DNA of 64,000 nucleotides from Membranipora membranacea (lineage: Eukaryota; Bryozoa; Gymnolaemata; Cheilostomatida; Membraniporidae): NCBI GenBank assembly GCA_914767715.1, contig OU612074.1, positions 22,184,062-22,248,061 of the forward strand, written 5' to 3'. The notes beneath the pieces are model-generated. The model did no database searches, had not been told where the DNA came from, and saw only the letters and a program-made list of their open reading frames with translations. Position numbers and translations under genes: made by a program. Positions 390 through 64,000 of this stretch are shown piece by piece (position 1 is the stretch's first letter; the number at the start of each line of letters is the position of its first letter).

Positions 390-826
390 TCTGGTCATGT
401 TCTGGTGGTGGTCCTTCCAGCCGATGAACCCTCATGTCCTGGTTGTGGTCCATCCAGCAGATGAACCCTCATGTCCTGGTTGTGGTCCTTCCAGCCGATG
501 AACCCTCATGTCCTGGTTGTGGTCCATCCAGCCGATGAACCCTCATGTCCTGGTTGTGGTCCATCCAGCCGATGAACCCTCATGTCCTGGTTGTGGTCCA
601 TCCAGCCGATGAACCCTCATGTCCCGGTTGTGGTCCATCCAGCCGATGAACCCTCATGTCCTGGTTGTGGTCCATCCAGCCGATGAGCCCTCATGTCCTG
701 GGTGTGGTCCATCCAGCCGATGAACCCTCATGTCCTGGTTGTGGTCCATCCAGCCGATGAACCCTCATGTCCTGGTTGTGGTCCATCAGGCCGATGAACC
801 CTCATGTCCTGGTTGTGGTCCAAACC
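390..826. repeat. 37-bp minisatellite, about 11-12 copies
   Basis: A 37-bp unit containing CCGATGAACCCTCATGTCC and TGGTTGTGGTCCAT is repeated head to tail with few substitutions. The short open frames across it (rich in Pro, His and Val) are a by-product of the repeat and have no family resemblance. Confidence 0.95.
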
Positions 827-1562: not shown

Positions 1563-1619
1563 CCTAGCATAGGATTGATTGATTGATTGTTGGACTGATC
1601 GATCGATCGATCGACCGAT

Positions 1620-1711
<92 letters not shown>

Positions 1712-1735
1712 GATTGATTGATTGATTGATTGGTC
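1563..1735. repeat. (GATT)n microsatellite with GATC-rich core
   Basis: A run of the tetranucleotide GATT, interrupted near 1598-1622 by GATCGATC and GACCGATC variants. The minus-strand Asn-Gln-Ser-Ile frames across it are repeat artefacts. It lies about 190 bp upstream of the first recognised ROCO exon, so probably inside its upstream intron. Confidence 0.95.
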
Positions 1736-1926: not shown

Positions 1927-4900
1927 TCTGTCTGGATTGTCGAAGCTAGAGGAACTCGCCATCTCATACAATAAAAAGATCATCAGACTTCCAGCTCAGC
2001 TACACAGACTTAACAAACTGATAGAACTGGAACTTTCAGGATGTAAATCTCTAACATTCCCACCACCTGAAGTGATTGAACAGGGTCTGCCAGCAATACG
2101 AAAATTTCTGACTGATCTTGACAACGGTATTGGAGTTAAATTCATGCCTGTGACTGTGATCGGTGAGGCTATGGCAGGGAAAACAAGCCTCGTTAAATCT
2201 ATACAGACTGGTAAAAGACAGCTAACATACAGGTCGACCATAAGTGAACTAGATGAGGCTACCAAAATATTCAAAGTCTGCGAGGCTGCTGCTGACCCTC
2301 AAACCAAATTGGTATTTCATGATTTTGGCGGCCAGAAGATCTATCAGTTTGGTTATCAGCTGTCCACCAGGTCTCAGTTTGTACCACTTCTCGTCATAGA
2401 CATAGCAGAGTTCAATAGACAAGTAAAAAAAAGTGGTGCGGAGACAGCGTGTCAGACGCTTTGTTTCGACTGGCTGTCTCATCTCTATCTTGCATGTCCG
2501 CAAGCAGGCCCTCCCCTTGTAGTGCTGACTCACTGCGATGAATTACAAGACATAGAGGCGGTTAAAGAAAACTTGGAGCTATTGGATGAGTTTACAGAGA
2601 CATTGCGTCAGAGAATAATCACAGAGGAGAATGCTATGGCCCCGTCGTCGAGTCCATTATCAGCGATGAAAAGCTTTAGTGATACATCAGAACCTCTTCT
2701 CACAAAACATAGACCCATGACAGTTCACACACTATCAAAAAATGAGATATTCACTGAACTTATAACTGCTTTGATCTCCATTGGTTCGTCACTACTAAGA
2801 GAAATTCCGGAAAGCTGGTACAACCTGATGTATCGTATCGTAGAGAGGACTGATCTGCCCTGCCTGACACTCAAGGAACTAGATGATATGTTTCCAGATG
2901 ACAAAGAGCGTTTTGTTTTACAATACCTTCATGACATAGGAAAGGTAATGTGGTACAGAAACAGGCCCAAACTATCTGATATAGTGTTCCATCGCATTGA
3001 GGTGCTCACAGAGCTAGTGGTGTTGATCTTTGATCACTCTAGCCATGAAGTCTGGTCTAAACGCATCAAGTCATTTGTACCTTTTTCACATGATGGCAAA
3101 GGGGTCAACAAAAAGAGATATGAAGAAATGGTAAACGACTTCCTGAGCACAGGAAAGATGAACTCAGCCCTATTGTTCAATCTTATTGAACAAGAGTCCG
3201 AACTATCCCCTGACACAGCAGTTGAGGTTCTTAGAGTGTTTCATCTGGTGTGTGGTCCGATCCTGAATGATGATGAAAGCCATTATATCATCCCCTACTT
3301 TAGTCCGAAAGTAATCAATCTAATGGAGAAGGAGAACTATATCCCCATGAAGGTCGAACTGTGTTTTAATGGACTCGGCATTCCAAGTTACGCGTACTTC
3401 CTCCTGACAGCGTTTTACATTGACCTCAATATCAATGACTTTAACCACATAGATGTTGGTCGTAATGGCGCCCGAGTTATGGATACAGATGGTACAATAA
3501 AGTACATTATCCACAGCAACTCTGATAGGATGGTCCACCTTATTGTGTTCACTCGAGCGGATACTATAGCTGCTTCCTGGAAGGATCTGCTAACCACTTT
3601 GCATCGCCTAACATCAGAAGTTGACAAAGTGTGGGAGGGAGCTCACTATGAGACAGTGTTTTACTGTTCACACTGCCTACTGTCCAAACAAGATATGCCA
3701 ACTTCTCAAGTGGACCCAAACTGGTATAGGAAATACCAGCCTTCTCGGAATGACCAACATATCTCTTATACTGGGAAGGAAGTGCGTGTATGCAGCCAAA
3801 ACAGACAATCTTCAGATCCGTTATCAGTACCATACCCACTACAAACTCCATGTAAGTCTAACACAAAGTGATGCGATGTGTATTGGAAGATTATTTATTA
3901 TCATAAACATATTTTTACTGATAGAAAATTTAAAATAGCTGCATTGATACACATAGATGAGACCAATGAAGGTTAACATGTTTTGGCTACTCAAATTTAT
4001 ACTCTTGTTGATTGCATTAATTCATCTCATATTCCAGGCAGCTCAATCACGGCGGAGGGTGTCAAGGCTCTTGATTCATACTTATCAGCTCTTCAATCAG
4101 AACAGGTTACAGCAGGTTCGTCCACATTGTCATTCAGATACACTCAGCTATAACTTACAGTCTATGGTTAATTCAATTTTTTGGAAATCTTGTGAACTAG
4201 TGGTGGGCAGAGTTTGTGTGCATCGCCAAAATTCTTTTTTGGGTTTCTCTATCCACATGATCAATGAAGCCTAACCCATGCCAACCATGACCTTCAGTTC
4301 AATCACAAAAGATTGAAAATGTTTTGCATGAATACTGTGAGCACATCAGGTCCAATGGTAAGACATAGGGCATACTAAACCTGCCAAAAATATCTTCTCA
4401 GATTGGACTCCTTGCACTAAAATTTAAGCTTGCCCTTGTCATAATATTATACATTAAAGTTGTCATTGTTTATGTTCAAGTCACGAACTGTGAAATGTAG
4501 CAAGGCAATCTTAAAAAACAAAGACTATCTAGCCTAACAAGTTTAAATTGTTTCTGTTTTTACAATTTATTATTTATTATTTTCTCTCTCCGAGGGGGCT
4601 TTTTATCTCGATGTAAACATCTTTGGACAAAGAGTATAAATTAAACAAACAAACAAACAAACAAGTATGAATATCACCATGACATTGCGAACAACAATCC
4701 GCTTACCTTAAATGGTGGAAGGATGTAATTAATGGAATCAATAAAAATAGCTAAGAGGATTCAAGTCCATCAACTCAGCACTATCAAAACTTTCTTATCT
4801 GATTCTAACTATTACCAATATGCCTGACATTAGTCTTCTGAGATAGAAATAATTTAATCTTTAATCAACTTCTTTTATTTTGTAGATATGTCCTCATCCT

Positions 4901-7900
4901 CTTCACAGTCTCACGAGGCAGCAATGCTAACGGATATTGCTGATGTTGTTAACTCACAGAAAGGGCTGATTATCCTAGAGCCAATCACACGTGATAATAA
5001 TGAGTCTACCAAGGTATAGCAGGCAGAATGATTATTCAGTGCTTTCCCAAACATAATAATCTATTTCAATAAGCCTCACTGGTTACTGTGCTTTTGATGC
5101 TTATATGAAACAAGACCTTGCACTCTGCAGATCATTAACCAAAGTGCAAACATAAGAGCGACACTCTTTGAGGACATCAACAGAACTATATATTGCTTAC
5201 ACGACATTCACCAGTTACATTTTGTCAAAGCAATTCTGCTAGGCACTATATTGTTAGAATTGTTTTCTGCCCACATCCCTATTGCAGATCTCTGTACAGT
5301 CAAATTCTATCACCAAATTTCAGTTTCTCTTGCCAACTTGCTCAAGATTATTGCAATTTACAGATCACAGGAGCAAGTGGAACAGTGAATGAGGTGTATG
5401 TTTGTGATTCACGACGAATTGGGCTGATCCTTTATAATCCACATGATCGTGAAGGTTCCAAGGAGGAAGCTGACAATTTAAACGTTGGTTTAGAAGCTGC
5501 AGGCTGTGACATCACTAAAAAGGAATGGTCATCTAAGGCAGATATCCGAAAACTCATCGACGAAGGAGTTGATTCATCTGCCGGCTGCAGTTTGCTCATT
5601 ACCTGCATCATGTCACATGGTTGTGCGGGAAAGCTTAAGACCTCGGATGGTGAAATTGTCATAAATGATATCCTGGTCCAGATCAATAAGAAACTGGATA
5701 AGAAGACACCAATGGTAAGCAAGTCCCTTGATTGATGGCTTACGTTTAATTTTGTAATATAAATCAATTGATCAGTTGATTTCGTTTGTCAACATTATCA
5801 TTGTTAGTTAGAGATTCTGTAGTTGAACACAATACAACACATAACATATATCTCCAGTCGTGCTTATTGTAGCAACATTATAACCAGCATAGAAATTATA
5901 ATTGTAATTTAGATTGTGGTGGTACAGGCATGTCAACATCACATTCAGAGCTATGACGCCTGGAAGACCTCTACAGAGAACACTACTAATATCATCTTAG
6001 ATAGAGCACATACTGTGCTTCTTCTGTCCACGATGAGACATGGGTATGCCAAGCGTGGTGCTTATACTGGTGCATTATCGGAGCAGTTCAAAAAGGCCAA
6101 CAACAAAACGGACATACATGAGATGCACAACAACGCTGTCGCAGAAATGACAAAGAAATTTGGAGATGAGCAATGCCCTGAAATCCGTTCTACATTGAAA
6201 AAGAAACTTGTGCTTCCTGGCAGAGCAGCTGCTCAGGTGGTGAGTTATTATTCTTTAAATTGAACCCAGTCACAGTTCAGGTGAATGTTCCCAGTATTAT
6301 TTAGTTCCTTGACCAGCCAACAACCTCATCATTTGAACCACGAAAATGACGCATATTGATGAGGTTTGGTCAACAAAAGAGCAGTTAAAGAGTTAATGAA
6401 TCAAGAAAAATATTTTCTCTAGGAAACATATCCAATGTCTAAGTCCCCTGGAAGAGCGCTCATTATATCCAACACCTACCACAACACAACACAAGGAGCT
6501 TATCATGATTATGGAAACATTGAAAGGATGCTGGATAGTTTTGGATTCATCACCAATGGAGGTCATAGGGGCTACACTGCCAAGGTAAGACAAATGAAGT
6601 ACTTTGTCTGTGTCAAATTTACTAAATCACAGACATCAATAGTAACATCAACAAGTTACATCCAACCTTTGCAATGGAGTAGGTGGTTATCTTAAATGAT
6701 TGTTGACATGAGTCACCTCCAAATCCAAGAATGAAGTTTATGAATGAGTATCATAATCTTCCTTTCAGTGATCAACATACACTGAACCAAACTATAATGC
6801 AGAATAGGAATACTTGGTTTTCTTATTTTGTGCAGTTAATCGCAAGACAGCATATTAATTTATGACATTTCAATGAGCAAATGTGAGAGGTGCACCTCAA
6901 CCAGATCCATGTGATTCCACTCGATGCAGCAACAACTCAGATGGTTTTTACATATATATTTTTCCTTAAACAGTCATGCCTCGACACAAAACATATTGGA
7001 CTGCAATGGCAACAGAAAACCATAAGTGATGAAATAGTTCTGATATTTCATTTGTCAACATCAGTGCCTTTGTATAAAAACAGTCCTACCTGTGGCAGAC
7101 CTCAGATTATGTACAATCACTCAGATCCCTCAATCGCTTGAACTTGACTAAAAAATGGTCACTCTTTTGTTGAACAGGAAATGATTGAGGAGATCCGTAA
7201 AGAGACACAGCTACTGGATAGCCAGACAGGGGAATCAGTACACACACATCTCAACTCATTCATATTAGTGGTTATATCTACGGGTACAGAAAACACAGTT
7301 ATTGGGTCTGATGATAAACATATCAACATATCAGATATACTGGATTTACTGTCCCCTAAGAACTTCTGTGTTATGAGAGGAAATCCAAAACTAGTTCTTA
7401 TTCAAAGCGTAGAAGGCAGTAAGTTAGACTAAATGAGTGTCATCCTCAAGGAACGTCATTATCTGTGTCATGCATAGTTATATACATGATTGGTATAAAA
7501 TACTGCCCCAATCAAATTGCATTCATCAAGTTCTTAAGGATGATATTCTGGATCATTTCTTTAGGATTTGAAAATATGCTATTGAAACCCAAATGTTGTT
7601 TAAGCTAATCATATTGATAACTACAACGTCCATAAATGTCTAAGTCTGTTTTAGTTAGAGGAAGAAATGATGTCCTGCACACTGCCTCTGCTACTCAGGC
7701 TGATGTTAATCAGGATATCCCTGGAGGAGATCATCAGCCTCAGCCAAAGGTGTCTGACTCACAAACTGATACACCTGAAGCCGACAGCACATCTGACCTC
7801 ATCATCATCCAATCAGGATTTGAATGTGAGCTATCAATGGAAACCAAATTGAGAATATATTGAATCATGAGTATAATTATTCTTTTTTGGTTCATTCAAG

Positions 7901-8868
7901 TAAGGGAAGCACATGTCAACATGTCAAGTCAACCACTTTTGTAGTTATCATTTATATCTGCATGTGGGTTTGCAAAGCTATAGCAGTTTCCCCAGACAGA
8001 ATTCAACCCTCCATTATACTCCTATGTGTTATGTTTTGCCAAGAAGAATATTTTCTCCTTTATACTTTCCCAGCCATTGTTATTGACAGATTACTCGCTA
8101 CTTTAATTTAACTTTAATTTAATTCGCAAGAGCTCGTTTTGATGGCCGAACCCTTTTAATTGTGTCATGGGTTACGAAGACAGCTGCAAAGTACAATGAA
8201 ACATTGCGATATGCTGAGTTGTATGATTGTATCACACTAAATACTAAATTTCCTTTTCAGCCTTTACCTCACCTCGCCGATCTACCTTTGGCTCACTGTT
8301 TATCAGATCACTGGTGTCAGTATTTTATAAGTATGCTCATCGATATCATGTTGAAGAACTCTCGGAAATGGTAAGTTTTGATTACAATCAATAAGAAGTT
8401 ACTAACCATATGATATTTGTCTGCTTCTTGTATCTCAAAATTAATTAGGCGTTTCATATCAATGATTTAAACATAAAAAAGACATCTCAGAGCAGTTCAT
8501 TATTGTCATATCAGTCATCAATGTCTCTATTAACATGTTATTGTCTTCAGATCATCAAATTTCTATCAAAGATAGATCAAGTAGATACACCAGTGCATTA
8601 TCTTGAATACCTCAAATATTGGCTTTTTTAGACCAGGAAAGTTATGAAATTCATAGGAGAACAAAGAACAGATTACCTACTGAGACCAAGAAGATACAGA
8701 GTAAGTCATGAAGCAGCTCACATTCCTTCAATACTTCAGTCCCAATGTCGGTTCACAGGAAAGAAGCTCTACTTACAGCACAGAGATAATGTAACATCAG
8801 GGGATCCAAACAAAGGTCAGACAACTCCTGTCCTGCCGGATCCACCAACTTCTAGCGTTGCACAATAG
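1927..8868 (+). CDS. ROCO protein (LRR-Roc-COR) with tandem caspase and pseudocaspase domains
   Basis: Probable GTP-regulated scaffold protease, about 1,250 residues visible; the 5' end is missing. Proposed exons: 1927-3851, 4038-4115, 4886-5013, 5364-5714, 5913-6239, 6423-6584, 7178-7418, 7655-7825, 8261-8370, 8551-8580, 8632-8868. All joins use GT-AG and keep frame (phases 1,1,0,0,0,0,1,1,0,0). Exon 1 encodes LRR residues, then a Roc GTPase with P-loop GEAMAGKTS (2162-2188), switch DFGGQ (2321-2335) and THCD (2528-2539, in place of NKxD). A COR domain and a YCSHC motif follow. A Ser-rich linker (exon 3) leads to two caspase folds. MFHAS1-like ROCO proteins share the first half; the caspase half is unusual. 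Stop codon TAG at 8866-8868. Seen: motifs, splice sites and open frames. Inferred: that all exons form one transcript. Confidence 0.85.
5364..6239 (+). other. Caspase domain 1 of the ROCO gene, catalytic dyad present
   Basis: Exons 5364-5714 and 5913-6239. The p20 part has RIGLILYN, then DREGSKEEAD, which keeps the Arg that binds the P1 Asp side chain in caspases. The catalytic His is in SHG (His codon 5616-5618). The catalytic Cys is in QACQ (Cys codon 5931-5933); most caspases have QACRG or QACQG. The p10 part follows in the same exon (LLLSTMRHGYAKRGAYTGAL). The intron falls just before the Cys-bearing strand. I see no clear Asp processing site between p20 and p10. Confidence 0.85.
6423..8868 (+). 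other. Caspase domain 2 of the ROCO gene, catalytic residues lost
   Basis: Exons 6423-6584, 7178-7418, 7655-7825, 8261-8370, 8551-8580 and 8632-8868. The start (YPMSKSPGRALIISN, then DYGNIERMLDSFGF) matches the beginning of a caspase p20. Where the His should be the sequence reads STG (Thr codon 7280-7282 for His). Where QACRG should be it reads QSVEG (Val codon 7409-7411 for Cys). A p10-like piece follows (FGSLFIRSLVSVF, then GKKLYLQ near the end). The fold looks kept while activity is lost, as in cFLIP. Inference: it acts as a dimer partner for domain 1. Confidence 0.75.
8581..8631 (+). other. 51-bp in-frame mini-intron candidate
   Basis: Begins GTAGAT and ends TTTTTTAG, with a pyrimidine tract. 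It is 51 bp, so retention would keep frame, but the acceptor TAG itself (8629-8631) is an in-frame stop. Removing it joins FLSKIDQ to TRKVMKF and continues to a plausible p10 end. The donor is weak. Confidence 0.5.
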
Positions 8869-9276
8869 ACCTGTGAGTTTATCTTATTCTAATCGTGATT
8901 AAAACAGGGATTTAAAATTTGATTATTTTTATTAAAGCTCGTAAACTTACTTACTATTTGATGCTGTAGATTCTGATTCATGCTTGTTATCTTACTCTGC
9001 TGAATCACAGTAGCTATGTAACACATTGATATACTCTTTTTTTTTTCTTAGACGAGATACACAACACAAGTACGAGAGGATGGGCACAAAGAGAGTAAAG
9101 ATATTTATTAAAAGTGGTTTGGACGATACAGTGAAAGAGTGATAAGTGAAAAACTAGGATGCTCTGAATAGTTTGTTTTCTGTTTATTATACCCTGATAG
9201 ATACGCTAGCATACTAGCTTTGCATGATCAAAGTATTTTATTTTCTGTTCACTATTAAAACTCATAAAATTAGCAA

Positions 9277-9282
9277 AATAAA
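9277..9282 (+). promoter_or_regulatory. Candidate polyadenylation signal of the ROCO gene
   Basis: AATAAA about 410 bp after the ROCO stop codon. The 3' UTR may itself be spliced: GTGAGT just after the stop (about 8873) and a long T-rich acceptor near 9050 are present. Confidence 0.35.
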
Positions 9283-9361
9283 CTTAAAAGCTGCTCTGTA
9301 GAGTTTATATAACCGTTATAAGTGGTCTATATTTACTGAACTGATAATTCTGTTCCCTCAG

Positions 9362-9427
9362 AGTCTGTTGGTCAGTTTGAATAACAATGAACTATCAACC
9401 TCATGTTCACTGAAAGAGCTACTTCAG
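9362..9427 (+). CDS. Isolated leucine-rich-repeat exon
   Basis: Flanked by TTCCCTCAG and by GTATTT, 66 bp, phase 0 at both ends. It reads SLLVSLNNNELSTS and then LKELLQ, which fits one LRR unit (LxxLxLxxNxL). It could be the start of a second LRR gene downstream of the ROCO gene, an alternative 3' exon, or a leftover of an ancestral duplication. No neighbouring LRR exons were recognised. Confidence 0.4.
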
Positions 9428-10964: not shown

Positions 10965-13900
10965 GGTATCAAAGCACTGTTTCTTCTTTCCAGGGTTCTT
11001 CAAAGCTTTGGTGAGACCATCTATAGAGGTAGTATTGCTGGTAGCTAGGAAGGCTTCTTTCTTGACAAAGGCTGCATACTCATGGAAGTTTGGATGGCGT
11101 TTATGATCATAGCGTAGGCTTCAAGCTTGCCTTGACCATTCGCTCATTAAACCAGTGGAGAGAGTGGTAGGAAAACATTTCATCTCATGAGGATAGCTCA
11201 GCTTCTGAAGTTCTGATACCGCAGACATTGTTATGATGCATTGTTCAAGAAAGTTGGAATATTTCTGTAGGCCTTGACTATCACTGCTAGAGAGTTGAGG
11301 CCATGATTCCAGTCGATCTCGGAATGCTTCTGTAAGATCAAACGGGTTGCCGTACTTCTCATCTAATCTCTGTTTGGCCTGGCTATAGGCATGAGCTGTA
11401 TTTGAACATTGAATATCGAACATACACCTTTCACCAGGTCTAATGCTTCACCTGTCAAATAGTCTTCTAGGTAGACTAACTTTCGGCGAGATTTGCTTTC
11501 AACAAGTAAATCAAATATTGATTGCCACTTGGGATAGTCGATTATATCCCCTGAGAATTTGATATGCTTGGCGGGTGGTAGGCTGTTGATGTCTACCGAC
11601 TGTTTCACTAGGTGCAACATTGAAGAGTGGGCTTCTGATGAGTTGAGAGAGAACTATGAAACCTCTTCAGGAGGACAGGTGAGCCTATGGTGATAAGTCC
11701 GGATCTCGTCCTTAGCTTTGAGTATCTTCAACTCCATTTCTAAAGCTTTAAGCTCTGAGTGATGACCAAGTTGAGACTGAGGATTTACTGCTGATGAAGC
11801 GTAGGTAGTCCGATGATCTAGCCTTGTAGACGCCAGATCTGGTACAATAGCACTGAGTGTAGGCAGGCTGTTGCCTTGAGTGAGCACTTGGGTCTGAGTA
11901 GTGTGAGCGTGTATGTTGGAGACCGATGAAAACATAGGATTGTCCCGTACGTCTGATCGATGAAGCCAAATACAGAGTTGTTTTGGAAGACATGGGGATG
12001 TGTGTTTATCCCCTTAGTACCACCAGAGTTAACATATGAGTTAGGTGGCTGACTGGCAGTAGGTAAATGAGTGGGATTTATCCCTGGATGGTAGCTGAGA
12101 GGATCCAGGTTTGAATACACCGAGTTAGGTCAAGACTCAGAACCAATGCGATAGCCAGTAGAGTGTGGGTGTGAAGCCTAATGAATACCAATTGAGTACG
12201 AGTTGGGAGTTATCCTGGTATCATGAGAGGCAACACCTGAGCGTGGGTTTTGTATCCTGTGTGCACCAGGTGGCGCATCACTATTGTAAGTGACCAGGTG
12301 CGGGTTACTGGGCTGAGATTCAGAATGTATACCAGTTGAGTACAAATTAGGAGTTATCCCAGTACCATGAGAGGCAACACCTGAGTGGGGTTATGAATCC
12401 TATGTGTACCAGGTGGCACATCACTATTGTAAGTGATTGGGTTTGGGTTACTGGGCTGAGAAACAGAACATATACCAGTTGAGTACAAATTAGGAGTTAT
12501 CCCAGTATCATGAGAGGCAGCAACTGAGTGGGGTTATGAATCCTATGTGTACCAGGTGGCGCATCACTATTGTAGGTGACTAGGTGCGGGTTACTGGGCT
12601 GAGAAACAGAATGTATACCAGTTGAGGACAAATTAGGAGTTATCCCAGTATCATGAGAGGCAACACCTGAGTGGGGTTATATCCTATGTGTACCAGGTGG
12701 CACATCACTATTGTAAGTGATTGGGTTCGGGTTACTGGGCTGAGAAACAGAATGTTTACCAGTTGAGTACAAGTTGGGAGTTATCCCAGACCCATGAGAT
12801 GCACTAGTGACTGAATTATGAGTACCATCTATATAAGCGGGTTCACCACTAGTGTAGGCAGCAGGGCGAGAGAGGCCTGGTTGAGGCACTGAATGATCAC
12901 CATGAAGATAGGGATAAGGAGTTGTCCCAAAACCATGATTGGCGACCCTTAGAACTGACTGATGAGCGGCATGTACATCATGGTGCACTGACACTGGAGG
13001 CAGCAGAGTATGGGTTGGTCGATTGAGGTACCGAATTTACGACAGAGGGATAGAGATTAGGAGTTGCCCCAAAACCATGATGGGCAATACCAGGCATTGA
13101 TGGATCCCTACTACCAATAGATTGAGTAACAACTGAGGACCGACGGCCCAGATAGGGCTGAGTTGTCTCCCTCTACTGCTGATTATACCCCGATATGGTT
13201 GAGAACTGAGGAGTTGTCCCCCATGACCAATGAAGGAGGTTGGGTATGTGTATTTACCTCCCCTGTCTGTGTCAAAGGAAAGTGTTGGGTTTGTAGGTTT
13301 GTAGTTGTCCCCCCTGCCTGATGTGACCATAATTGAGGTAATGGTGGAGGTGGGAGCTGGGCAGTTGTCCCACCTGTGTGATGTTGAGACCCGGGTTGGG
13401 ATATGATTGGACTGGTTGTCCCCCTTGACCCTTGATCTAACCATGGTTGGGGATTAGCCTGACTAGTTATCCCCCTGGACTGATAATGACCTCCCAAGGG
13501 CTGTACCGGGACATTTGGGCCAGGGTAAGGATCCCTATGGGCTTGACTAACCTGGGAATAAGTGGACTGATAATTGCCTACTGAGGTTGGCATAGGCGTT
13601 ATGCGCTGCAGTTTGATTGCAGCTGGAGGAGACACAAATGCAGATGGTGTGACACTGAAGAGTACCGTTGAAGCAGTTTGTGTTGTAGGTTGGGGTGTTG
13701 CAACTGCAGTAAGTAGAGGGGAAAATATTTCAAGTGAAGGATTGTCTTCTCTTTTTGCGAGTGGTCGAGCTGGGGTGGTGTCAATCATTGAGCTAGAATC
13801 TTCCCCCCTGTTGGCTGTGGTGTGGTCAACATTGTGAAGTTAAGTTTGCTGACCTAGGGAGCCAGTAGTGGTGTCCAGAGTAGAAGAAGCAGCAGCTTGA

Positions 13901-20305: not shown

Positions 20306-21000
20306 TTAAATCCCGTAATTAATGCAAGTAAAATAATTGCTCAGTATTGGAAGGGGTAAAATTTTAAGTGATGTACATAGGTCATTAGTAGGTGACAAAT
20401 AAAAAGGTATATGTTGAACATTGGCCACAATTCTCAAGGCTCTTTTTTGCTGAGTGAAAATAGGGTTTGTGATATTTGATGCACAAGTTGTAATATATAT
20501 ATGGATACCATAAATGAGATAACAGTGAATAAATTGAAAATAAAATTGTTTAGCAGAATGCGTGGTCAAGTAGGGTCTGCATAGCTTAAGTAGGTTTGTA
20601 TTTTTTGACACCTTATCCAAAACAGTCTCACAATGGCCATTCAATGAAAATGAGTCAGATATCTTAAAGCCAAGAAGTTCAGTTTCATGCCTTTGAAATA
20701 TTTGGTTATTGTCAATTTTTAAATTTAATGATGAATCCTCCCCAAAAGAACTTAAAACGTGTGATTTTTTATAATTTATTGTCATGTGATTATTTTTGCA
20801 CCACTTGTTGATTGAAACCAAATCTTGATTACAAATTTGAACTAACGTAGAGGGAACAGAATGGCTTGCTACAAAGACAGTGTCATCAGCATATGCATAA
20901 GAGTTTGAGGAGAGAGGTAGATTTAGTAGGTCATTTATATAAATCTGAAAATAAAGTTGGTGCCAGTATTGAGCCTTGCATTAGAGAGTTTCATAAACAA
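20306..21000 (-). pseudogene. Non-LTR retrotransposon reverse-transcriptase relic
   Basis: Reading down from 21000: QGSILAPTLFS, then in another frame YINDLLNLPLSS, then YAYADDTVF carrying the YADD active site, then INKWCKNNHMTINYKKSH, LLGFKISD and QQKRALRIV. This is the palm and thumb part of a Jockey/CR1-type reverse transcriptase. A frameshift separates the QGSILAP block from the YADD block, and no endonuclease lies upstream, so this is a dead fragment. Confidence 0.85.
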
Positions 21001-55745: not shown

Positions 55746-58700
55746 ATGCCGGGAAAGGCTGAAAGAAGACGACGACAGAAAGCACGGGAATCGGAGCTTA
55801 ATGCGCAAGAAATGCAGAGACAGGCTGTTGCAAAGGCTGCGGCCCCAGCGGCGGTTTCCCGCCGCAGAGTATTGCCGCCAGCACCACATGAAACCCAGCT
55901 AATAGAGACAATCAGGCTCCTCAACGACCAGTTACATGATATGAGACTAGAGATGAATGAGTTAAGAGAGCAAAACAGACAGAATGAAGAGAGAGAGGTC
56001 CAACGGTATAGGCAATATATCAAAGCCAGGAATGGCGGCCCAAGTGGTAACCGAGGACCAGTATGTAAACATGTAAGGAGGATCACCCTTCCTTCATCGT
56101 AGACCATGTAGACATTGTCAAGGGCCCCATTATGATAACCAGTGTCCGGAAAGAAACGGGTTGGGAAACTCTCGACCCATTTCTTAAACCCGGTCAATGG
56201 AAATGGGAAAGTTGACGAACCGGAATTCTCAACTAAACAGTACTGACCTTAAGTGAGGGTGAGCAGAGTATGCTTCCCTCAAGCACTAGTGTCTGTACAA
56301 GAAGAGTTTGTACCCCTTGCAGCAGCAGTTACTACCCAACCAATCGACCTACATCAGATCCAGCCTTACGCTGTAAGAAAGTAAAATATGATTCATGCAT
56401 TGTTAACCGAATTCGGAGTTATGCTCCGTGTATACTTATCTCAAGGAGAGAACAACTCCCTGTAGCTTTATCAGAAGTTGATTGTAAGGCCCAATATGGT
56501 GCAATCGAGATTAAGGTACAGCGAGTGGCTGATAATTGTTCAACTGATATCTTATACAGTTGCGAGGTTCACACAGAGTCAGCAGACAAAAACATATATG
56601 AAGTGGATAAGATGGAAGGTCGAACATCTGAGGTTGAAGGTACATAACCTGCAGATGTAGATAACTGCTCAGCTATTGCAGATAGTGGCTCAAACGCTCC
56701 CTGTGCTGGTGTCCACGTTGATGACACACCACCGTGGGATCCTGGTGAAAGGGGTGAAAAGGGCGATGCCAGAGTAACTCTCCAGGGTATCCCTCTAAAA
56801 GGTACGGGAGTTAAAGACAGAAAGTGTATGAGAGGTATAGCCACCTATGTATGAGTGGTAGTAAATGGATATGTTTCATTATTTCAGTTGGATACAGGCT
56901 GTAGTTCAACGGTCATCAGCGAGCACTTTGCCCAGTTTATTGGCCTCATCTCACTAGAAGACAAACAAGACCCAAAGTGATAAACAGGGTTGCTGACGGG
57001 GCCAATATACCGAGCTACGGCTTTAAACTGGTTGAGGTCGAGATTAATGGTATTAAACTACTGGGTAAGATGATGGTCAGCCAAGTGAGTGAGAATGGAT
57101 TTCTAAGGATGGATCTGCTGTCCCAAGCCGGCGCTATCATCAATTTTGATGAAATGTACATACAGCTGTATGAGCAAAAGATACCATTGCTAAACAAAGA
57201 AGGAAAGAGAATAGTCAACAGCCTGATCACTAGAGAATCAGTTTGCTTACCTAAGTATAGCCAGAATATTGTCGGCTTAGATCTGAGGAGAGGTAGCTCT
57301 ATGATTGGTCTGGTTGAGCCCCGTACCTCGGTTTTGGACCATTACCAGGTCATAGGAGGGCAAAACCTGGGAAACGCAGCTAATCTCAGAATGAAGGTAA
57401 ACAATCCTTCGCCACATGATGTGATCATACCGTCGGGTACATCTATCGCGTACTATGTTTCTGAATCAGCTCTGCAGTTACCCAGGAAAGAAGAACCAGA
57501 GAGTTGTGTGAACAATACATCAGTAGAGAAGGTCGATGAGAATACGGCCTTACCAGTGCATGTACAATGCCTCTATGGCCAGATCCCAGATGATATTTCT
57601 GCAGAGACTAGGCAACTAGTAAGGGGCTTGTTAATTCGATATGCTTCTGTATTCTCTAAAGATGAAAATGACGTTGGGTATTGTGACTGGATTAAACATG
57701 AAATCAGGTTGCTTCCAGGAACAAAACCTATCCGTCAGCCCCCATACAGGGTGGGACATCATGAAAGTACAGATATACAGAATCATGTCACCAAGTTGTT
57801 AAAAAGCGGGATGCTTGAAAGGGTTGTCTCCCATGGAGCTCCCCAGTTCTAACAGTGATGAAGAAAAATGGGAAAACCAGGTTTGTGCAAGATTACAGGA
57901 AGTTAAATACATGCACCGAACAGGAATCCTATCCGCTACCCAGACAAGATGATGCTTTAGAAGCGCTTAGTGGTTCTAAGTATTTTACTACGGCAGATCT
58001 CACTTCTGGGTATTATCAGATTCCCTCAGTGAAGAAGCGACTAAGATAAGTTCCTTTGTGACAAAAACCGGTACTTACGGCTTTAAAAGGCTGCCTATGG
58101 GGTTATCGTCTAGCAGTCACTGTTTTGAACGCCTCATGGAAACCGTGCTCCGTGGCTTACAATATGAAGAGCTACTTGTCTACATGGATGATGTGATAGT
58201 GTTTTCAGCTACCCAAAGCCAGCATGTGGAGCGTCTCAGCAAGATGTTGAGCAGGCTTCATGACGCTGGTCTGAAAATAAAACCATCAAAGACGTTCGTG
58301 TTCCAGAGGCAAGTTGAATATTTGGGCCACATTGTTAATGAGCAGGGTATACATACAGACCCGAAAAGAGTCAAAGCCATGGCCGATATATCAAGCCCAG
58401 CCGAAGTTATTCAACTGAGGAGTTTGCTGGGGCTTGCAGGATATTATCGCAAATTTATTCCTAACTATGGCGGAGTTACCCAGTCTTTGTGTAGGTTGCT
58501 CAAGAAGAAGATCAAGTATGTATGGGACGAGGAGTGTGAAAAAGCATTTTTATGCTTAAAACAGTTGCTATGCGACCATACCGTATTGGCCTACCCGGAC
58601 TATCAGAAACCATTCATACTGGACACTGATGCCAGTTACATGGCTTGTGGGGCTGTGATAGGCCAGCTGGATGATAATGGAGATGAGCAACCAATAGCTT

Positions 58701-60532
58701 ACTTTAGCTTCGCTTCAAAGGACTCACAAAAAAAGTATGGAGTTACAAAATTGGAGATGTTGGGACTGGTCAGTGGCATCAGACATCTCAAGACGTATTT
58801 GTATGGCGCGAAATTTGTCTGCCGCACAGATCACCACAGCCTTATTTGGCTTAAGAATATGAATCATCCCCAGGGCATATTAGCCAGATGGCTTGAGACA
58901 TTATCGCATTATGATTTCACAGTGCACCACCGTGCTGGGCAGCTACATGCCAATGCCAACACTTTGAGCAGGCTGCCATATAATATTCAAGGTGAAGATA
59001 CACATTTTGCCCAGAGTATAGAAAATCATGGATCAAGCTTTGCCATCAGAAGGAATAGCTGGGGACGACATTGAGCTCACCAGTGTGGCTATCAGCCAAG
59101 ATGAAATAAGGGATGCTCAGAAAGCTGACCCGGATGTGAGTCGAATCCGTGAATGGATAAGTAATGATGTTTATCCGCCAAACAAAGAGCTGAAAAAGCT
59201 AACTCGTTGCATAAGGTTCTACCTTGGCAAAAGAGATTCGCTCGAATTGAAGGACGAGCTACTGGTTGAAAATTCTACAATGGTCAACCGGGTGGTAATT
59301 CCTCACTCAATTCAGGGCAATCGCTAGCTTCCATCATGATGACCACGCCGGCATCGAACGTACCTACAAAAGAATAAATACAGATTACATATGGCATCTT
59401 ATGCACTCACAGATAAGAGATTATATACAGCTATGTCATAGCTGCCAGTTGCATAAAGCCGCCAGGAATCCATCCAGACCCCGCAGCTTAGCTAACGGGG
59501 CAATAATGGATCAGGTCAGCCTGGACATTGTTGGCAGTTTCAGAGCCACAAATAATGATAACACAGTGATCCTAGTGGCCATCGAACACTTCTCAAGGTG
59601 GGCTGAGGCTTACCCCCTTCCGCCTGCCACTGCGGAGAGTTGTGCACAGGCATTATATAATGGTATATTCGCTAAATTTGGGTTTAGCAGAATCATCCAT
59701 ATGGACAGGGCTGCCTAATTTATGTCAGAATTAGTGGCTGAGCTGGCGCGGGAACAGTAAAAATACGTTCTCATGCAGGTACCACCCTGAGGGTTACAGC
59801 ATGGTGGAACGGATGAATGGGACACTAATAAATAGCCTGCGTACCTCTTTTGGGGCCGATGCCAACCGAGAGTGGGATGAAGTGCTGGAGACAGTGATGG
59901 TAGCCTACCGGGCAATGCCTCATCCAGCTACAGGCTTCACACCAAACAGAATAATGCTCGGTAGGGAAACCAGGCTATGCCAGGTAATGTGCCCAGAATC
60001 TGATCCGAAGCCTGTAACAGAATATATAAAAGCACTGGATAATACTCTCTATGAGGTATACAACAGATAGAGGAATTTATTGGCTGAAGAGTGCCATTTT
60101 GATGGGACTATCCATGCACCCTTCAGCGAGGGTGACAGGGTGCTCATTAAAAAGAAGAAATCCGAGCTGAACTAGCCGGGCAAACTAGAGATTCGGTACT
60201 ATGGGCCATTTACCATCAAGAAACGGATGGACTTTGACTCATACGTGTTAAGTGAGGGTGATAGACATGTGATTGAACATCATTCTCGCCTCAAATTGTA
60301 CCATGAAGACGGCGACTCATCGGCCGATGGTATGGAGTTACCGCTACCGGGTGGAGAGCTACCCGCTAGCCCCGATGACAATAGCCAGGATAGCGCAGGC
60401 CCTAATATGGAACATAATGGGGCTGAAACCAGTTTGGTCGATGAGAATAGTGACGAGTTTGTCACAATGGTCCGCCCGAATAAGAACCGACCAATCAGGT
60501 TTGACGACTTCCTGATGGGCTCGCCCGAGTAA
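55746..60532 (+). pseudogene. Decayed Ty3/gypsy retrotransposon (gag-pol)
   Basis: Gag starts MPGKAERRRRQK with a coiled-coil stretch and then, in another frame, a zinc knuckle (CRHCQGPHYDNQC). The protease has LDTGCSSTVIS near 56886. The reverse transcriptase has LPMGLSSSSHCFERLM and YMDD (58177-58200). The RNase H has LDTDAS. The integrase has HHDDHAGIERTY, CHSCQLHK, LDIVG, HMDRAA and MVERMN, and a C-terminal YYGPFTI module. Stops or frame breaks occur near 56.1, 56.86, 56.97, 57.85, 58.05, 59.32, 59.72, 59.76, 60.07 and 60.17 kb, so it cannot encode a full polyprotein. LTRs were not recognised. Confidence 0.9.
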
Positions 60533-61739: not shown

Positions 61740-64000
61740 ATCATAAACCTGTCTAAAGATTTGTTTGTGTACTTGGGCAGGTCATTGATGTAGAGTAGGA
61801 ACAACAGTGGCCCAAGTACACTCCCCTGTGGAACACCTGAGGACACTTCACTTCTACCGGAGCTCACACCATCGACCACGACTTCCTGGGTACGGTTTGG
61901 GAGAATGATGTAATCCAGCTATGTACCTGAGGACTGATACCATATCTTTGTAGCTTGGCTAGGAGAAGGTGATGAGGTACCCTGTCAAAGGCTTTAGAAA
62001 AGTCTAAGAGTATCACATCACATTGGCCCCTGTCTTCAATAGTGCTGACAAAGCCGGTAATTGTTGAGACTAGTTGAGTCTCACAAGAACGCCTCTATCT
62101 AAAACCGTGTTGTTCACTGCATAATATGCCATACCTCTCGAGATGTCGGTTTATTTGACTTGAGATAATATGTTCCATCACTTCGCAGACTATTGAGGTT
62201 AAGGAAACTGGTCGATAGTTTTCCGCCTTTTCTTTATCTCCTTTCTTAAATATTGGACTCACATTGGCATGGCGCCAGTCATCAGGTACCTGACCCTGAC
62301 TCCTTTCATAGATGAGTTTCAGAGTTGGTGCAATCTCAGATGCTACCGATTGCAAGAGTTTAGGTGTCAGACCAACAGGACCAGGGGCTTTGTTCATTTT
62401 CAGGTTACGGAGTAGTTTCCTTACTCCCTCTATGGTGATGGTGAATTGAGTCATTGGATTTTGCGGCATTTCTTGTACTGGTGTGGTGTTCTTCCTAGCG
62501 AATACTGATGTAAACTGGGCATTTAGCAGGGAAGCTTTCTCTTTGCCATCGGTCACGGCATTCCCAACGCGATCCTTGAGAGTACCTATACCAACATTCT
62601 CTGATAGTCTGCTTTTAATATAGGACCAGAACCTCTTATTAAAGATCTGCGGGTGGTCACCACTTTCGTCGGTCATCAGTTCAATCAGGAACTGATTATA
62701 ATGTTTGCTTGGCTAACAGCCTCGTTTTCTGTTTTACAGCCTTGTAGGTTTCCCAATCTGATGGTTTATTGGTTTGGCGAGCTCTTCGGAAGGTCTTTTT
62801 CTTGGTACGAGAGAGAGCCGCATAATAGATGTAGTGATCCATGGCTGGTGGTGTTTTACCAATGCTGTTTTGCTAGGTACACATCTGTCCTGAACGGCTT
62901 TGATTTCTCTAAGGAAGTAGTTCCAGATGCTATTGATATTAGTATCTTCTGGAAACTTTTCTTATCATCTTGTGCTTTAGTTCTTCTGTTTCTTTTTTGA
63001 GCTCTCTTCCATAATTATATTTTCCTAGGAAGAGGCTTTCGGCGTTGAGCTATAAGACGGTTTTCAGTCATGACTCTATGGACTCTATCACCGAAACCGG
63101 GCTCAATGTGGCATTTAATCATCAATGCTGGTCTGTTGGTGAAAAAGAGGTCAAGGATATTTTGCTCTCTGGTAGGTGAATCAACCATTTGAGACAGTCC
63201 GCAGGTGTGCATCATATCGAGATACCTTTGATTTAGTTCTGTTGGATATTGATGGCCTGTGATTGTCCCGGTCCGCCAGCATATATCGGGGAGTTTGAAA
63301 TCTCCTCCTAACCATACACTAGCCTTCTTTCGTCTCCTCTGTATCTTTTCAATAGTAGTACATAGTGATGTTGGGTAGTTGATATCTCTGTTTGTTGGGC
63401 GGTAAACTGAGCCTACAATTAAAGCTGGTTTACCCTTCTGAGTGTTTACTTTGATGAATACTGCTTCAACGTCTTTGCTAGTCTCCAGCTGTTCACAGGT
63501 GAACTCTGTCTTTATTGCAATCAGGGCCCCACCATGACTACTACCTATTCTGTCAGATCGATAGACATTATAATCTGATGGAAAAATCTCAGAGGAGGAG
63601 ATAGAGCTATTTAACCAAGTTTCACAGCCAGCAATTATATCAGGCTTCTCTGCATCAATGAAGTTCAGTAAATCTGCCTTCTTATTGTTGATACTTTGAA
63701 AATTGGCTATGTGAAAGGTCACCGGTCGTCTGTAGTGTCTCTTCTGTTTATTTTCAGACTGGTCTCTCTTCGGAGAAGAGCAGCATCTTGGGTTCGGTTG
63801 GAAATTCACAAGATCGACTTGCTCACTCTCTGCTGATGTCAAGTTGTTTAGTGAATTGAATCTTGTCTGATGGCAATCCAAGGACAGGTCTAAGAAGGCT
63901 GTTACGTTTGGTAAGGCACAGTTCAGGCAGTGCCATGACGAGTTACCAAGGCTTAGGAAAATATCCTTTCTCACGCCCAGACATCTGCGGTGGTACCAGA
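61740..64000 (-). pseudogene. CR1/L2-type LINE, endonuclease plus reverse transcriptase, truncated and frameshifted
   Basis: Runs off the right edge. From 64000 down: a PHD-like zinc motif (WYHRRCLGV, SSWHCLNCALPN), an endonuclease frame 63974-63015 (NFQSINNKKADLLNFI, CETWLNSSI, SVYRPTNRD, WLGGDFKLPD), a degenerate linker (62.7-63.0 kb) and reverse transcriptase 62676-62095 (LKMNKAPGPVGLTPKLL, NYRPVSLTS, EQHGFR). After a TAG it continues with LLDFSKAFDRVPHHLLL and [20 protein letters not shown], then stops matching near 61740, before the YADD site. The usual GDFN of the endonuclease reads GDFK. It is not functional as read. Confidence 0.9.

Follow-up and report, generated by a model that had tools for sequence, protein, structure and literature searches.

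In this study, we examined a stretch of 64,000 nucleotides from chromosome 10 (C10) of the bryozoan Membranipora membranacea (C10:22184062-22248061, the window below) and characterized the gene at positions 1927-8868 of its forward strand, in which leucine-rich repeat (LRR), ROCO and caspase sequences appear to be joined. In the spliced model, 11 exons join in one phase-consistent frame with no internal stop; all 11 acceptors are AG and all 10 donors are GT, in agreement with the splice sites and phase continuity given in a preliminary description of this DNA. The modelled product has 1251 amino acids and is open at its 5' end. The gene start that had been placed at 1927 was not upheld, as exon 1 opens in phase 2 inside the LRR domain and a further 24 LRR exons in phase 2 were located before the window. 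Exon 5 ends ambiguously, at 6236 or at the previously given 6239, with one residue at stake. An Rfam search at gathering scores gave no match, and a tRNA scan of the COX1 locus found none. Read by eye, the COX1 sequence, on contig 18 of the assembly, fits best when AGR is taken as Ser and ATA as Met, and a sponge or cnidarian source of the DNA was rejected. Coordinates are collected in Table 1.

The order LRR, Roc, COR and two caspase folds, as described before, was recovered in this one gene model: Roc (E 1.5e-7) and Peptidase_C14 (E 1.3e-41, in two stretches) exceeded their Pfam cut-offs on the spliced product, and COR-A and LRR_8 (E 0.0048) were below theirs. With its P-loop and G3 motif, the G domain of Roc places the product among the ROCO proteins. 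When 30 ROCO exons (including that of the window) were aligned, Roc was matched in all of them and COR-A in 20 at E<=0.01; the first G, AGK and S of the P-loop and the DFGG of the G3 motif were invariant throughout. The profile of this alignment had the Roco of C. tepidum (CtRoco; PDB 3dpu, 6hlu, 8r4b) as the closest solved relative of exon 1, the best structure being 3dpu (8e-13, mainly the LRR end and Roc), and a second stretch on the same structure was insignificant; the record names of these structures are without a caspase. A structure prediction of exon 1 alone was discarded (mean pLDDT, the predicted local distance difference test score, of 33).

Both C-terminal domains, each with a large and a small subunit, can be assigned to the caspases by their sequence. 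Scanned apart, domain 1 (5379-6236) reached 73.2 bits (3.3e-20) and domain 2 (6423-8868) 78.8 bits (6.5e-22) against a Peptidase_C14 cut-off of 21.4 bits, and the lack of a significant match, which had been named beforehand as fatal to the fusion, did not occur. Domain 1 retains the Arg, the catalytic His and the catalytic Cys of the large subunit as well as the Arg of the small subunit, according to an alignment with caspase-8 that is a weak single-sequence match (E 0.0056). The pocket Arg residues associated with cleavage after Asp are likewise placed in domain 1 by this alignment. In domain 2, Thr, Thr and Val stand in place of Arg, His and Cys, and only the small-subunit Arg is kept (the His, Cys and last Arg were aligned to CED-3, and the first Arg to caspase-4). 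Since Thr and Val replace His and Cys, domain 2 was filed as a pseudocaspase. Its paralogs differ in this respect, as tblastn found His and Cys in all 11 paralog copies of exon 7. Thus, the caspase with an inactive partner of the preliminary description was correct in order and kind, four key residues being kept in domain 1 and three of four lost in domain 2.

The loss of these residues has not been accompanied by a loss of the reading frame. Domain 2 has no stop in 316 codons, where a neutral change of 0.1 per site would produce 4.0 stops on average (P(0)=0.012). Its ratio of nonsynonymous to synonymous change (dN/dS) was 0.11-0.24 against eight active paralogs, compared with 0.08-0.13 in four pairs of active copies, and these ratios are rough because synonymous sites are near saturation. 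Domain 2 is therefore, as predicted from these data, a pseudocaspase that has been held open and constrained, and a regulatory partner role appears plausible.

Table 1. Features of the ROCO-caspase gene and of repeats and retroelement pieces in the window
Feature	Position in window	Strand	Basis or remark
Exon 1: LRR domain end, Roc GTPase, COR; starts in phase 2	1927..3851	+	Spliced model, Pfam
P-loop GEAMAGKTS of Roc	2162..2188	+	Read from sequence
G3 motif DFGGQ of Roc	2321..2335	+	Read from sequence
Exon 2: post-COR linker, common to sibling genes	4038..4115	+	Spliced model, sibling comparison
Exon 3: linker	4886..5013	+	Spliced model, paralog peptide likeness by eye
Exon 4: caspase domain 1 (type B), large subunit, phase 0-0	5364..5714	+	Model, Pfam
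Domain 1 Arg codon, aligned to substrate-pocket Arg of caspase-8	5448..5450	+	Alignment
Domain 1 catalytic His codon (SHG)	5616..5618	+	Caspase-8 alignment
Exon 5: domain 1 catalytic Cys and small subunit, phase 0-0	5913..6236	+	End 6236 or 6239
Domain 1 catalytic Cys codon (QACQ)	5931..5933	+	Caspase-8 alignment
Exon 6: start of caspase domain 2 (type A, pseudocaspase)	6423..6584	+	Thr (6489-6491) replaces substrate-pocket Arg
Exon 7: domain 2 large subunit	7178..7418	+	Thr (7280-7282) for His, Val (7409-7411) for Cys
Exon 8: domain 2 linker, large to small subunit	7655..7825	+	
Exon 9: domain 2 small subunit (SPRR...FIRSLVSVFYKYAH)	8261..8370	+	Arg retained
Exon 10: domain 2 small subunit, 30 bp	8551..8580	+	
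Exon 11: domain 2 end and stop codon	8632..8868	+	
37-bp tandem repeat, 11.6 copies, before exon 1	395-822		Common to siblings L042 and L044
GATT repeat (40 copies) immediately upstream of exon 1	1573-1732		
Retroelement piece	56905-60070	+	Reverse transcriptase (RT) and RNase H at 57980-59071
Retroelement piece	20306-20980	-	RT at 20309-20980
Retroelement piece	11121-11447	-	DUF1759 at 11124-11447, below cut-off
RT-like stretch	62095-62712	-	By eye only

To place the gene in its genomic context, we searched the 339-Mb assembly (18 contigs). All genome counts are lower bounds for the best candidates scored (71 of 258 for ROCO, 145 for PF00656 and 155 for domain 1, of which the 150 listed were used). 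All 71 ROCO exons scored in the search with exon 1 were matches, and 66 of them had a caspase match no more than 4 kb downstream on the same strand; within 10 kb, no caspase match was found upstream or antisense at any of the 71. Random placement (1000 runs) gave 0.23 pairings on average and three at most, so that the order of ROCO followed by caspase cannot be ascribed to chance. By their caspase match, 37 of the scored exons had PF00656 only (type A), 28 had a domain-1-like caspase only (type B), one had both and five had none. In the eleven genes at the ten type-A loci read (L041-L050), the caspase that comes after ROCO is a homologue of domain 2; at one of these loci, L045, a span of 10 kb holds two such genes in head-to-tail order, the second ROCO exon being only partly in the stretch. 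At the type-B locus read (L053), a domain-1-type caspase with His and Cys is followed by a stop. The window is the sole locus of the 71 with both a type-A and a type-B match, a status that is provisional.

The two ends of the window gene appear to have different histories. Its exon 1 is 91.5-93.0% identical over 600 residues to those of the siblings L042-L044 and was grouped with them at 100/100 in the tree. The tail (exons 6, 7 and 9; 170 residues) is 56.5-57.1% identical to the sibling tails, falls outside their 100/100 group and has, at 0.53, the longest branch in the tail tree (the end branches have a median of 0.21), with no resolved position otherwise. Against all three siblings, close similarity of the DNA ends at position 4121, beyond which only 7202-7404 matches (69%). 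With the whole protein as query, no match to exons 4-5 was found in L041-L050 at E<=0.01; these exons show similarity to the caspases at type-B loci, L053 among them, and the best-scoring relatives of domain 1 among the matches listed lie near 24.7 Mb on C3 (57%; single exons up to 59%). A cluster of domain-1-type caspase exons at C3:24.57-24.79 Mb, which holds these best matches, has none of the 71 ROCO exons close by. Thus, the window gene looks like a chimera in which a type-B caspase sits between the linker and the family's own decayed type-A caspase. Because the head is nested among the siblings and the tail stands alone, an origin of the pair by recombination is favoured over an old tandem that was lost elsewhere.

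The LRR part of the gene was traced upstream. Twenty-four LRR exons lie at C10:22166909-22173350 (positions 2821-9396 of stretch L040), 12.6 kb before exon 1 and about 10.7-17.2 kb before the window start. They have a period of about 274 bp (22 exons of 141 bp, one of 159 and one of 135), and all 24 are open, multiples of three in length and in phase 2 at both ends, with 24 AG acceptors, 23 GT donors and one GC donor. The array encodes 20 distinct peptides. Diversity was 0.106 among the 22 exons of equal length vs 0.033 among 21 introns of equal length, and the ratio of nonsynonymous to synonymous polymorphism (pN/pS) was 1.39 in this one array, with no significance attached. Variation was greatest at positions 14, 15, 25, 39 and 41, which we take, from LRR structure, to be mostly on the concave face or adjacent to it.

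Across the genome, 150 LRR matches were placed; 113 of them precede a scored ROCO exon by no more than 40 kb in the same orientation, and the other 37 do not. LRR exons at this distance and orientation were present at 12 ROCO loci, with 13-23 at each of five on C10, namely the window gene, its three siblings and a gene at C10:22.046 Mb. In flanks reaching 1.5-2.4 kb upstream of the ROCO exons of paralogs, LRR exons were seen in only 2 of 32, the arrays lying farther off. With 71 scored paralogs and diversified sensor exons (the diversity coming from one array), the family resembles a repertoire of receptors for immunity or self-recognition. Some LRR exons lie away from any of the 71 scored ROCO exons (C5:29.55-29.78, 28.20 and 24.28 Mb; C3:21.8-22.5 Mb), and PF00656 matches occur near the C5 groups at 29.55-29.78 and 28.20 Mb. 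Open stretches at 913 and 1612 of L040, before the LRR array, may hold the gene start, which is a guess; that at 913-1122 contains MGTVLGRIARRF, which might be an N terminus and has a Gly-2 presumably open to lipid modification. Gypsy-like retroelement frames were noted by eye at about 5016-8480 of L039, inside the intron that separates the LRR array from exon 1.

Several known systems resemble this gene in part. The bacterial LRR-APGTPase(Roc)-COR conflict systems include caspase among at least 24 C-terminal effector domains (PMC8195603). The window gene shares with them the order of LRR, Roc and COR followed by a C-terminal effector, whereas here the genes are those of an animal, have many exons and LRR exon arrays, and in the window end in two caspase folds, one of them dead. 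The preliminary description knew of no described protein with this order; that view is not supported, since the bacterial combination is already in print (PMC8195603). The brown-algal LRR-ROCO family is likewise large, with tandem phase-2 LRR exons and variation focused on LRR positions (PMC11378527), all of which apply to the Membranipora family. Brown-algal LRR exons have 72 bp and one LRR each, in contrast with 141 bp and two LRRs each in Membranipora, and no caspase is named for these ROCOs in the sections consulted, where one three-member group has a peptidase domain (IPR009003) (PMC11378527). As many as forty ROCO domain combinations are reported there for animals in a figure whose contents lie outside the text available here, so that an animal ROCO-caspase may already be drawn (PMC11378527).

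Among animal proteins, the LRR-caspase and TNFR-caspase hybrids of amphioxus also join a sensor directly to a caspase; they differ in that all are said to keep the active-site motif, and the words Roc, COR and GTPase are absent from the main text (PMC2575513). The pairing of an active caspase with an inactive caspase-like partner is found in caspase-8 and cFLIP-L (PMC11121540), which are products of two genes and pair in trans, whereas the window gene would provide both in one chain on a Roc-COR scaffold. The death effector domains (DED) of cFLIP were not found by Pfam in the modelled part; the window gene would therefore at most work like cFLIP and is not a member. In literature searches, titles and abstract starts among the matches listed revealed no animal ROCO-caspase and none with a pseudocaspase in cis, and no listed title dealt with bryozoan caspases or ROCOs; the Flustra genome paper does not use the words caspase, ROCO or immune in its main text.

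Taken together, the window gene probably belongs to a large ROCO-caspase receptor family, with an LRR sensor, a Roc-COR switch and a live caspase accompanied by a pseudocaspase in cis. In such a receptor, the tandem LRR exons would form a variable horseshoe that binds a ligand, and binding would shift the nucleotide state and the monomer-dimer balance of Roc-COR, by analogy with CtRoco. This shift could bring the caspase domains at the C terminus into place for activation and proteolysis, and a cell that is infected or mismatched may then die or become inflamed. The dead domain 2 would most likely pair with the live domain 1 in cis and set its activation threshold and substrate range, like cFLIP-L; because a short link joins the two domains, pairing within one chain may be possible. 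The inactive partner in cis that had been compared with caspase-8/cFLIP thus keeps a plausible regulatory role, given that domain 2 is open and constrained. The proposal of a GTP-switched dimerising scaffold may have to be reversed in sense: CtRoco is reported to be dimeric in the nucleotide-free state and mainly monomeric when GTP is bound (PMC6337361; PMC11052575), and caspase pairing might therefore follow hydrolysis rather than GTP binding. The notion of a self-contained death switch was an understatement, as a caspase exon lies near at least 66 ROCO exons and five C10 genes are each preceded by 13-23 LRR exons. More tentatively, and with somewhat less than even confidence, we suggest that the ROCO-caspase repertoire, whose equal-phase LRR exons are open to shuffling or alternative splicing, represents, in this colonial animal, single-molecule receptors for pathogens or for self and non-self that lead from recognition to proteolysis with no adaptor, and that the caspase and pseudocaspase of the window were fused in cis by a tail swap between receptor subfamilies.

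It should be noted that a number of observations weigh against the receptor interpretation. The splice donors that follow exons 2 and 3 appear weak, and exons 4-5 could be skipped with the frame intact. COR-A, although placed right after Roc, stayed below its cut-off (E 6.9e-5), and COR-B was not matched in the Pfam scans of the window product or of the 30 aligned ROCO exons. No caspase match was found within 10 kb of five of the 71 scored ROCO exons, and the loci read into the caspase are 10 of 37 of type A and one of 28 of type B. The PF00656 match of the window is exon 5 of domain 1, and its domain 2 was missed by the same search; a dead type-A domain following some other type-B caspase may therefore have escaped it, which makes the uniqueness of the window provisional. 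In the LRR array, synonymous diversity (0.081) also exceeded that of introns (0.033), and part of the exon excess may thus be due to homogenisation of introns.

These points have to be considered together with other explanations of the locus. A ROCO gene and a separate downstream caspase gene might have been wrongly joined, and the in-frame ATG in exon 3 (seen in the spliced-model translation) would suit such a reading. However, a co-oriented caspase match within 4 kb of 66 of the 71 ROCO exons, with none antisense or upstream, is difficult to reconcile with two neighbouring genes, and the phases fit at all 10 joints. Linker peptides also recur between ROCO and caspase: those resembling exon 3 sit between COR and caspase in L042, L046 and L049 (by eye), and in Pfam the linker had only a sub-threshold Anamorsin_N match, taken as chance. 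The two-gene reading was rejected by the pairing statistics (66 of 71 vs 0.23) and is very unlikely. The single gene of the preliminary description is hence supported by comparison, that is, by phase continuity, by the linker peptides of paralogs and by the pairing, although this concerns genomic sequence. A decaying locus without a useful product, in which the double tail is a by-product of recombination and domain 2 is dying, would account for the longest branch of the tail tree, for a dN/dS about twice that of active pairs and for the three key residues gone from domain 2. Against this stand 11 open exons of 11, a dN/dS of domain 2 well below 1, the absence of a stop in its 316 codons and the four key residues retained by domain 1, and we consider decay unlikely.

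A brake or decoy function, in which the pseudocaspase occupies the dimer surface of domain 1 and reduces death signalling instead of activating its partner, has an appreciable though minor chance of being correct. The evidence from architecture serves it equally. Of the two cFLIP forms, cFLIP-S blocks caspase-8 and cFLIP-L forms an active heterodimer with it (PMC11121540); the constrained full-length fold of domain 2 is closer to cFLIP-L than to a truncated blocker, and otherwise brake and activator are not divided by the present data. The chance is small that ROCO-caspases serve developmental cell death or that of colony regression, with a family size due to duplication only. Retroelement sequence in the big intron and in the window is in line with such a history, whereas LRR variation that is focused on few positions and higher in exons than in introns (one array measured) speaks against it.

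In animals, the route from death receptors to caspases runs mostly by way of adaptors, for instance CARD, DED or death domains. If the ROCO-caspase receptor interpretation is true, a sensor, a GTPase switch and a caspase in one chain would make up an adaptor-free route, parallel to the bacterial LRR-ROCO-effector systems and to the brown-algal ROCO receptors. Public RNA-seq of the species, with an accession listed in PMC10290214, brings the single-transcript question within reach. The window gene would then be a natural cis version of caspase-8/cFLIP, in which it may be asked how a dead caspase tunes a live one.

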